Positions 239 through 48,540 of a DNA stretch of 64,000 nt are shown piece by piece. The first letter of the stretch is position 1, and each line of letters starts with the position of its first letter. The DNA comes from Rhodococcus oryzae (GTDB lineage Bacteria; Actinomycetota; Actinomycetes; Mycobacteriales; Mycobacteriaceae). The DNA is taken from NCBI RefSeq assembly GCF_005049235.1, contig NZ_SUMD01000017.1, positions 1 to 64,000 of the forward strand. Direction: 5' to 3'. The position numbers and the translations under genes are program-made. The notes under the pieces are model-generated. The model saw only the letters and a list, made by a program, of their open reading frames with translations, was not told the origin of the DNA and did not search any database.

Positions 239-244
239 TAACCT
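239..244 (+). promoter_or_regulatory. Predicted -10 element of dprE1
   Basis: TAACCT fits the actinobacterial SigA -10 consensus TANNNT and lies exactly 8 bases before the ATG at 253, implying a leaderless or nearly leaderless mRNA. No Shine-Dalgarno sequence precedes the ATG. The same spacing is seen at aftA, both emb genes and glf. Confidence 0.5.
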
Positions 245-252
245 CTACAACG

Positions 253-1701
253 ATGTCCACGACAGCTGAAGAGTCCCCGGCCGCCGCCGTGCAGCCGCAG
301 CCTCTGACCACCCAGACCCGCACCCTGACCGGCTGGGGGCGCACCGCGCCCACCACCGCCCAGGTGCTGTCCACGCCCGACGTCGAGGTGATCGCCAGCG
401 CGGTCGCGCAGGTCGCCGAGCAGAACGAGGGCAAGCCGTCCCACCTGCGGCGCGGCGTCATCGCCCGCGGGCTCGGCCGGTCCTACGGCGACCCGGCGCA
501 GAACGCAGGCGGCCTGGTCATCGACATGAATGCGCTCAATCGCATTCATCGCATCGATCGCGACACCGCCCTGGTGGACGTCGACGCCGGTGTGAACCTG
601 GACCAGCTGATGAAGGCGGCCCTGCCGTTCGGCCTGTGGGTTCCGGTGCTGCCGGGTACCCGCCAGGTCACGATCGGCGGCGCCATCGGCTCCGACATCC
701 ACGGCAAGAACCACCACAGCGCCGGCAGCTTCGGCAACCACGTCATGTCGCTGGACCTGCTGACCGCCGACGGCAAGGTCCGCACGCTCACCCCCAAGGG
801 CGGGCGCAACGATCCCAAGGCCGCGCTCTTCTGGGCGACGGTCGGCGGCATGGGCCTGACGGGCATCATCCTGCGCGCCACCATCAAGATGACGCCCACC
901 GAGACGGCGTACTTCATCGCGGACAGCGTCCGCACCACCAGCCTCGACGAGACCATCGCGCTGCACAGCGACGGCTCCGAGGAAAACTACGACTACTCGT
1001 CGGCGTGGTTCGACGCGATCTCCGCGCCGCCGAAGCTGGGCCGAGCGGCCGTGTCCCGCGGCTCGCTGGCGAAGCTGGACCAGCTGCCGGCCAAGCTGCA
1101 GAAGGATCCGCTGCGGTTCAACGCCAAGCCGCTGGTGACGTTCCCGGACATCTTCCCGAACGGCCTCGCCAACAAGCTCGACTTCACGATCGTCGGCGAG
1201 CTGTACTACCGGAAGACGAAGAACGCCACCAACCAGGTCCAGAATCTGACGGCGTTCTACCACCCGCTCGACCTGTTCGGGGAGTGGAACCGCGCCTACG
1301 GATCCAACGGATTCCTGCAGTACCAGTTCGTGGTGCCGCCCGAGGCGGTCGACGAGTTCAAGAAGATCATCGTCGACATCCAGCGGTCGGGTTTCTACTC
1401 GTTCCTCAACGTGTTCAAGCTGTTCGGCGAGGGCAACCAGGCGCCGCTGAGCTTCCCGATGCACGGCTGGAACGTCTGCGTCGATTTCCCGATCAAGGCC
1501 GGCCTGAACGAGTTCGTCACCGAACTCGACAAGCGTGTCCTCGAATTCGGCGGACGGCTCTACACCGCGAAGGACTCGCGGACCACCGCCGAGACCTTCC
1601 ACGCCATGTACCCGCGGATCGACGAGTGGATCGCGACGCGCCGCAAGTACGACCCCACAGGCGTTTTCGCCTCCGATATGTCCAGAAGGTTGGAACTGTG
1701 A
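253..1701 (+). CDS. dprE1: Decaprenylphosphoryl-beta-D-ribose 2'-oxidase DprE1
   Basis: FAD-dependent oxidase of 482 residues (M. tuberculosis protein 461). It oxidises decaprenylphosphoryl-ribose at C2' to the keto intermediate that DprE2 reduces, giving decaprenylphosphoryl-arabinose (DPA), the only arabinose donor for the cell wall. The PP-loop for FAD is visible as [13 protein letters not shown] near residue 75, followed by [16 protein letters not shown]. Cys409 in [11 protein letters not shown] matches Cys387 of the tuberculosis enzyme, the residue modified covalently by benzothiazinones, so the target site is intact. The ATG at 253 is chosen over an in-frame ATG at 160 because the extra 31 residues look non-native and a -10 element sits 8 bases upstream. 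Its stop overlaps the dprE2 start. Confidence 0.97.
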
Positions 1702-2459
1702 TCAACGCCGTGGGTAACCCCCAGACCCTGCTGCTCCTCGGCGGCACCTCCGAGATCGGCCTGGCCATCTGCGAGGAGTACCTGAAGAAGGCTCCGATGC
1801 GGGTGATCCTGGCCGCGCTGCCTGGCGATCCGGGCCGCGACGCCGCCGTCGCCCAGCTGAAGGCAAAGGGCGCCACCGAGGTCGAGGTCGTCGACTTCGA
1901 CGCCGTGGACACCGAGTCGCACCCGAAGGTGATCGACGCGGCCTGGTCCAAGGGCGACGTCGACGTCGCGATCGTCGCGTTCGCGCTCGACGGCGACGCC
2001 GAGGAGCTGTGGCAGAACCAGCGCAAGGCCGTGCTGGTGGCCAACGTCAACTACACCGCGGCGGTGTCGGTCGGTGTGCTCGTCGGCGAGAAGATGAAGG
2101 CGCAGGGCTTCGGCCGCATCATCGCGATGTCGTCGGTCGCCGGCGAGCGCGTCAAGCGCGCCAACTTCGTCTACGGCTCCACCAAGGCCGGACTCGACGG
2201 GTTCTACCTCGGCCTGGGCGAGGCCCTCGCCCAGTTCGGACCGAAGGTCACGGTGGTCCGGCCCGGCATGGTGCGCACCCAGTTCAGCGCGCACGTCAAG
2301 GAAGCCCCGCTGACGGTCAACAAGGACATCGTCGCCTCGCTCGCCGTCGCCGCGTCCGACAAGGGCAAGGAAATCGTCTGGACTCCGGGCCCCTGGCGCT
2401 TCGTGATGATGGCACTGCGGCACGTGCCGCGGGCGATCTTCCGCAAGCTGCCGATCTAG
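1698..2459 (+). CDS. dprE2: Decaprenylphosphoryl-D-2-keto-erythropentose reductase DprE2
   Basis: NAD(P)H-dependent short-chain dehydrogenase of 253 residues (tuberculosis DprE2: 254). It reduces the 2'-keto intermediate released by DprE1 to DPA. The nucleotide-binding turn reads [13 protein letters not shown] near the N terminus, and the catalytic Ser and YxxxK motif are in MSSVAGERV and [10 protein letters not shown]. The GTG start at 1698 overlaps the dprE1 stop (GTGA), so the two are translationally coupled, as expected for enzymes acting as a complex. A strong hairpin terminator follows at 2489-2524. Confidence 0.97.
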
Positions 2460-47309: not shown

Positions 47310-48526
47310 TCGCCGCTCCCGTTGCCGAGGGGCGCACCGGTCTCGAGGTGCGGCCGGAGGGTGTTGTCGAACATGCTGAGCGCGCTCGCGATGGCCATGT
47401 GCATGTCCAGGTACTGGTAGGTACCGAGGCGCCCGCCGAACAGCACCTTGTTCTGCGCGGTCTCCGACTTGGCCCGCGTCCGGTAGGCCTCGAGCTTCTC
47501 GCGGTCCTCGGGGGTGTTGATCGGGTAGTACGGCTCGTCCTCGCTCTCCGCGAAGCGGGAGAACTCGCGCATGATGACCGTCTTGTCCGACGGGTACTCG
47601 CGCTCGGGGTGGAAGTGCCGGAACTCGTGGATGCGGGTGAACGGCACGTCCGCGTCGTTGTAGTTCATCACCGGGGTGCCCTGGAAGTCACCGGTAGGCA
47701 GCACCTCGGTCTCGAAATCGAGAGTGCGCCAGCCCAGCTCGCCCTCGGAGTAGTCGAAGTAGCGATCCAGCGGGCCGGTGTACACGACGGGGGCGTCGGG
47801 GCTCGCGGCCCGCAGCTCGTCCCGCACGTCGAACCAGTCGGTGTTCAGCCGGACCTCGATCTTCTCGTCCTTGGCCATGTTCTCGAGCCACGCGGTGTAG
47901 CCGTCGACCGGCAGGCCCTCGTAGGTGTCGTTGAAGTAGCGGTTGTCGAAGGTGTAGCGGACCGGCAGCCGGGTGATGTTGCCCGCGGGCAGGTTCTTCG
48001 GGTCGGTCTGCCACTGCTTGGCGGTGTAGGCCTTCATGAACGCCTCGTACAGCGGCCGGCCGATCAGCGAGATCGCCTTCTCCTCGAAGTTCTTCGCGTC
48101 CTTGCTGTCGAACTCCGAGGCCTGCTCCGCGATCAGTGCCCGGGCCTCGTCCGGCGTGAAGTACTTCCCGAAGAACTGGGACACCAGACCCAGGCCCATC
48201 GGGAACTGGTAGGCCTGGCCGTTGTGCATCGCGAAGACGCGGTGCTGGTAGCCGGTGAACTCGGTGAACTGGGTGACGTAGTCCCAGACCCGCTTGTTCG
48301 AGGTGTGGAACAGGTGCGCGCCGTACATGTGCACCTCGATGCCGGTCTCCGGCTCGGCCGCCGAGTAGGCGTTGCCGCCGAGATGGTGCCGACGGTCCAG
48401 CACGAGGACCCGCTTACCCAGCTCGGTCGCCGCGCGCTCGGCGATGGTCAGTCCGAAGAAACCCGAACCGACGATGATCAGGTCGTACTGGCCAGAGGTG
48501 GCGGGGCCTGGGGTTACAGAGGTCAC
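47306..48526 (-). CDS. glf: UDP-galactopyranose mutase Glf
   Basis: A 406-residue flavoenzyme (Rv3809c: 399) that converts UDP-galactopyranose to UDP-galactofuranose for GlfT2. The FAD turn is [17 protein letters not shown], then [15 protein letters not shown], and [10 protein letters not shown] carries the active-site His. Conserved Arg residues of the substrate loop are present ([23 protein letters not shown]). The GTG at 48526 is chosen because TACCCT lies eight bases upstream. It is the first gene of glf-glfT2-PAP2-ubiA-aftB. Confidence 0.97.
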
Positions 48527-48534
48527 GGGCAACC

Positions 48535-48540
48535 AGGGTA
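48535..48540 (-). promoter_or_regulatory. Predicted -10 element of glf
   Basis: On the minus strand TACCCT is followed by eight bases and the GTG at 48526, the same geometry as at dprE1, aftA and both emb genes. No ribosome-binding site is present. Confidence 0.5.

Follow-up and report, generated by a model that had tools for sequence, protein, structure and literature searches.

The first 64,000 nucleotides (nt) of Rhodococcus oryzae contig NZ_SUMD01000017.1, the whole stretch analysed and called here the window, carry five arabinogalactan genes at which a TANNNT hexamer stands exactly 8 nt before the start codon. On the plus strand these are dprE1 (253 to 1701; NCBIfam equivalog NF053785, 800 bits), with TAACCT at 239 to 244 ahead of the ATG at 253; aftA (2970 to 4913, named from its place and from family-wide relatives only, such relatives being present in 92 of 101 genomes), with TAAGCT at 2956 to 2961 ahead of the GTG at 2970; and two emb-type arabinosyltransferase genes matching PF04602, namely emb1 (19065 to 22349, 724 bits), with TACGAT at 19051 to 19056 ahead of the GTG at 19065, and emb2 (22522 to 25830, 732 bits), with TACCAT at 22508 to 22513 ahead of the GTG at 22522. 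On the minus strand glf, for UDP-galactopyranose mutase (47306 to 48526; NCBIfam equivalog TIGR00031, 335 bits), has TACCCT at 48535 to 48540 ahead of the GTG at 48526. This layout had been pointed out in a first-pass annotation of the window and was confirmed letter by letter, as were the four GTG starts among the five (the other being ATG) and the lack of a Shine-Dalgarno sequence, the tetramers AGGA, GGAG and GAGG all being missing from the Shine-Dalgarno zone. All five genes thus combine a TANNNT 6 to 9 nt before the start, an ATG or GTG and no Shine-Dalgarno sequence, as is expected of leaderless genes.

Genes of this kind are well described. In Actinobacteria leaderless genes are marked by a TANNNT some 12 bp ahead of the start (PMC3160421), and in mycobacteria a 5'-terminal RTG is both required and sufficient for the translation of leaderless mRNAs (PMC4633059). 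Mapping of transcription start sites (TSS) puts the leaderless share at 26% of genes with a primary TSS in M. tuberculosis (PMC3898074) and at 24% of transcripts in M. smegmatis (PMC6448022). The layout in the window is the standard leaderless arrangement of Actinobacteria, already in print, to which the window genes add members, and what remains unexplained is one regularity, the near-fixed spacing of 8. Like the genes of PMC3160421 they have the upstream TANNNT, lack a Shine-Dalgarno sequence and inherit the arrangement across related genomes; unlike them they have a spacing of 8, which is a minority in the source genome and yet almost fixed in four arabinogalactan heads. With the M. tuberculosis and M. 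smegmatis leaderless transcriptomes they share the −10 TANNNT, the C-preceded purine start and the 5' ATG or GTG; however starts there are TSS-mapped and here predicted, and no arabinogalactan enrichment is named in the portions of those two reports consulted. Similarly, excerpts of PMC10928101, PMC6009663 and PMC8210147 name no arabinogalactan gene as leaderless, the word standing there in a reference title or for murT/gatD, and the part of PMC7382824 dealing with the embC-embA gap does not mention it.

In all likelihood dprE1, emb and glf, and aftA in this lineage, give rise to leaderless mRNAs from SigA-type −10 boxes abutting the start codon. The hexamers would act as these boxes, setting the transcription start at or within 1 to 2 nt of the start codon, and from that position the mRNAs would be leaderless, with the ribosome initiating on an RTG at the very 5' end and needing no Shine-Dalgarno sequence. 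The promoter would then act as one unit with the start codon, so that layout and start-codon identity would be conserved together. The layout, its genome-wide distance peak and its conservation are observed, and from these we infer the transcription start itself.

The layout in the source genome and in relatives

The sample of the source genome comprised 60 stretches and the window (1.10 Mb of 5.37 Mb), in which 923 genes were called from a coding score only, blind to upstream signals, 900 of them with enough upstream sequence. TANNNT lay 6, 7 and 8 nt before the blind start in 53, 43 and 20 of these 900 genes, and in 8 or fewer at any other listed distance (0 to 39). Seven permuted hexamers all stayed far below this peak; the largest, ANNNTT, has the ANNNT core in common with TANNNT and gave 22 at both 5 and 6 nt, and the next largest, TNNNAT, TNNANT and TNNNTA (the last at 10 nt), reached 13. 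When a start within 90 nt of the blind start was allowed to carry the hexamer (75 to 90 nt across the counts), 164 of the 923 genes had the layout, 73 at 6, 64 at 7 and 27 at 8, and permuted hexamers gave 3.9%. A Shine-Dalgarno tetramer was present at 8 of the 164 layout genes versus 303 of the 759 others. The distance peak and this scarcity of Shine-Dalgarno sequences are the signature of leaderless genes. About one fifth of head-like genes share the layout (123 of the 580 outside the arabinogalactan pathway), and across the family the leaderless mode is widespread, without being confined to arabinogalactan genes. The abundance of GTG at the window genes was rejected as a signature, 67 of the 164 layout genes starting with GTG (probability of at least four in five, 0.09), as was a link of GTG to the spacing of 8, GTG being found in 13 of 27 genes at 8, 25 of 64 at 7 and 29 of 73 at 6.

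By AftA the named relatives are Rhodococcus, Prescottella, Nocardia and kin (best 80 loci). In the ortholog scan only ATG and GTG were admitted, and of the starts carrying the hexamer the one closest to the expected position was chosen; conservation of the T, A and T columns was not used as evidence, because rows were picked for having TANNNT. At dprE1 19 of 20 genera have the hexamer 7 to 9 nt ahead of the start, 15 of them at 8 (permuted hexamers 9%); the layout is present in 26 of the 33 emb sequences, which come from 18 loci (25%), and at 29 of the 30 glf loci, 26 of these at 8 (1%). A further head, wzm, was found in the source genome outside the window (TAGGCT-8-GTG); it encodes the galactan-export permease and heads a wzm-wzt-glfT1 operon (stretch L328, 815 to 3412). 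It occurs in 15 of 20 relative stretches, each from another genus, and has the layout in 14 of the 15 (13 at 8, 1 at 7, 1 without; permuted hexamers 2.7%). The control values for these four genes are averages over five permutations. Orthologs accordingly keep the layout at dprE1, emb, glf and wzm but not at aftA, and the comparison makes leaderless starts at dprE1, emb and glf very likely, with aftA excepted. The suggestion of leaderless transcripts in the first-pass annotation therefore stands firmly for dprE1, emb and glf on spacing peak and conservation, and is lineage-restricted at aftA, where the layout was seen in 43 of 109 Rhodococcus/Nocardia-type and near loci and in 33 of 110 once repeats were removed and genera added.

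The same holds well beyond the pathway. Three control genes picked for having the layout in the source genome, serS, valS and satS (at 8, 6 and 7 nt), keep it in 30 of 30, 28 of 29 and 30 of 30 rows, with permuted hexamers at 5%, 21% and 5%. Among 45 ortholog groups, after rows with repeated upstream sequence and groups of fewer than 8 loci were dropped, 15 were classed as leaderless (at least 56% of rows), 29 fell under 20% and aftA lay in between at 30%; one of the 15, of MarR type, is doubtful, its control standing at 31%. Since serS, valS, satS and 15 of the 45 groups have the layout, predicted leaderless status is inherited at many genes, inside the arabinogalactan pathway and outside it. 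Where the layout is present the start codon is kept as well, as ATG in 18 of 19 dprE1 rows and as GTG in all 26 emb and all 29 glf rows. Across genera the leaderless serS, valS, satS, emb and glf hardly ever switch between ATG and GTG, as if the first base of the predicted mRNA were under promoter constraint.

Quite where transcription would start can be narrowed from the bases ahead of the start codon. At emb, glf and wzm these are mostly pyrimidines, and the first purine at least 7 nt past the hexamer is the G of the GTG in 65 of 69 rows. This agrees with M. tuberculosis, where a purine stands at the transcription start in 85% of cases, most often preceded by C (PMC3898074). Among source-genome layout genes whose blind start carries the hexamer, position −1 is a pyrimidine in 90 of 116, and for valS 22 of 28 rows show a purine at that position. 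At dprE1 the first such purine falls in the start codon in 1 of 19 rows, and a G stands at −1 in 18 of the 19 relatives with the layout and also in the window (252-253). This G may be the real start, which would give a 1-nt leader, or the A of the ATG may itself be used; dprE1 is predicted to be leaderless or to have the 1-nt leader, and glf to be leaderless.

Several observations weigh against strictly leaderless starts at these genes. The conserved −1 G of dprE1 would be a nearer purine than the start codon, and the spacing of 8 exceeds the usual 6 to 7, so that a leader of 1 to 2 nt is possible. The choice of start in the ortholog scan favours the layout, a bias that the permuted-hexamer columns measure, and for emb that control is high, while 7 of the 33 rows are without the layout, misplaced start and real loss being indistinguishable there. 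At aftA the layout is seen in only 2 of 20 genera, most genera not being of the leaderless type.

The spacing of 8 nt

In the source genome 8 is a minority spacing, seen in 18 of the 123 head-like layout genes outside the arabinogalactan pathway. All eight arabinogalactan layout heads examined have it (dprE1, aftA, emb1 to emb4, glf and wzm), and with emb counted once this is 5 of 5 against 18 of 123, a nominal P of 1e-4. The source genome has four PF04602 genes, of which emb3 and emb4 lie outside the window on other contigs (stretches L003 and L004) and both read TAGCAT-8-GTG, the layout start of emb4 not being its best-scoring one. Across genera dprE1, emb and glf are at 8 in 64 of 74 rows versus 24 of 88 for serS, valS and satS. 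In the group analysis the figures at 8 were 50 of 53 for dprE1, 69 of 88 for emb, 25 of 28 for glf and 14 of 15 for wzm; these four of the 15 leaderless groups, and 0 of the 11 others, reach at least 75% at 8, a threshold chosen after looking, and the next highest is an ankyrin-repeat gene group with 7 of 11. The concentration at this threshold has a P of 7e-4, or 4e-3 if a GtrA-like group is counted as arabinogalactan. That group (L220, 17933 to 18673; 81 sequences) is scored as leaderless in 74, all with GTG, and has a modal spacing of 7 (44 of 74); it may have an arabinogalactan role, perhaps in arabinan transport.

A spacing of 8 at every arabinogalactan head does not hold, aftD being without the layout in the source genome, aftA variable, with 18 of 33 layout rows at 6, and the GtrA-like group modal at 7. 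Single genes elsewhere also have it, among them serS, cysS, a CofD family gene and an erythromycin-esterase family gene. Of six GT87 matches scanned none was named AftC and one is a mannosyltransferase above its cut-off; none of the five GT87 genes inspected is at 8, in two a TANNNT stands 6 or 7 nt ahead of a start other than the best, and all were excluded from the spacing counts.

The spacing of 8 is a real excess in the arabinogalactan pathway, and it belongs to the promoter and not to translation. As a pathway regularity the near-fixed spacing at dprE1, emb, glf and wzm is suggestive only, because three of these four genes came from the selection made in the first-pass annotation; the sole unseen and independent test is wzm (by chance about 12% for one of four such heads).

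Readings weighed

That the hexamers arose ahead of start codons by chance seems extremely improbable. TANNNT is a short motif, and its permutations do occur near 3.9% of genes in the source genome and on average in 25% of the rows for emb and 21% of those for valS; however the distance peak is sharp, conservation extends to as many as 20 genera, and at dprE1, emb, glf and wzm it is not at or below the permuted-hexamer rate, and on the peak and the conservation a chance origin was rejected. Translation mode had also been read in the first-pass annotation as what separates sugar-polymer genes from lipid genes, a separation that would make arabinogalactan synthesis stress-resistant. In its favour, starvation and nitric oxide affect a leaderless reporter in M. 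tuberculosis less than one with a Shine-Dalgarno sequence (PMC8485053), and Shine-Dalgarno tetramers are present at FAS-I and at the fadD32-like gene. In addition 5 of 5 window heads have the layout against 123 of 580 others, a nominal P of 5e-4 computed after selection by looking, with the five entered by hand (the blind start of aftA is 99 nt off, and the head class did not include dprE1 and emb1). Yet the leaderless member of that reporter pair is desA2 of M. tuberculosis, and this gene itself encodes an acyl-ACP desaturase (PMC8485053), and the very few lipid heads in the comparison are too few for rates; at pks13 a TANNNT lies 9 nt ahead of one possible ATG. The pathway itself is mixed, with dprE2 having the layout in 1 of 20 genera, wzt and glfT1 in 0 of 16 each and glfT2 in 3 of 13, so not, or mostly not, of the leaderless type, and with the decaprenyl-phosphate phosphoribosyltransferase gene, aftB and aftD without it in the source genome. 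The tRNA synthetase genes and others hold the mode as stably; since serS, valS and satS are equally conserved, it is not peculiar to sugar-polymer genes, and a leaderless mode confined to arabinogalactan was rejected. The split by translation mode was thus not demonstrated and we regard it as improbable. The correction matters in that leaderless cell-wall starts appear as the ordinary mode of roughly a fifth of head-like genes and not as a special translation class, and for many genera the analysis indicates where dprE1, emb, glf and wzm probably start. DprE1 and Emb are known drug targets.

Predicted leaderless starts of the common kind leave as a testable residue the 8-nt promoter spacing at the four arabinogalactan operon heads. 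It could be that these heads form a promoter class, in which a long 8-nt discriminator under selection tunes initiation and so co-expresses the pathway, by way of open-complex stability and the response to CarD or to nucleotide supply; transcription and not translation would then set the pathway apart. We consider this rather unlikely. The uniform spacing of the source-genome heads argues for it, as do its excess over the control genes across genera and the restriction of the 75% level to dprE1, emb, glf and wzm, and wzm, emb3 and emb4 lay outside what the first-pass annotation saw. Work on rrnAP3 and CarD also shows that open-complex stability is influenced by the bases between −10 box and start, the discriminator, and that what CarD does depends on it (PMC10232725); however that account, in the part seen, varies sequence and G+C, not length, and makes no link to cell-wall genes. 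Against the proposal, further, stand the choice of three of the four genes for their spacing of 8, the paralogy of emb3 and emb4 with the poorer start score of emb4, the post hoc threshold with the ankyrin-repeat group close behind it, the departures at aftA, aftD and the GtrA-like group, and the occurrence of 8 at serS, cysS and the CofD and erythromycin-esterase family genes. A family-wide promoter signature at the dprE1, emb, glf and wzm heads, which serve arabinan and galactan synthesis and the export of galactan, coupling their initiation to a common growth signal, is accordingly put forward as a doubtful proposal.

Contrast genes and other features

The first-pass annotation had set against the five genes a group with clear ribosome-binding sites, and this stands for three of its four members: a Shine-Dalgarno tetramer is present at the fadD32-like gene (start 35322; AMP-binding, the name taken from its place), at the LLM gene (Bac_luciferase; start 36492) and at the first esterase/mycolyltransferase gene (start 40402). 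The second esterase gene (frame 40720-41994) is unclear, with no tetramer at its 8 listed starts and a purine-rich stretch preceding the start at 41715. The operon-internal dprE2 (1698 to 2459, plus strand; NF053786) is without the layout. An identical arrangement outside arabinogalactan, TACGAT-8-ATG, was overlooked in the first-pass annotation at the erythromycin-esterase family gene at 13420 to 14577 on the minus strand, a counter-example within the window, and TANNNT stands 6 or 7 nt before the start at five further window genes (15492, 49497, 50114, 50872 and 61552). Beside the wzm-wzt-glfT1 operon a second GlfT2-like gene lies convergent (L328, 3483 to 5333, minus strand). In the window a gene at 9287 to 10273 on the minus strand encodes a sigma-70 factor fused to a SnoaL-like domain.

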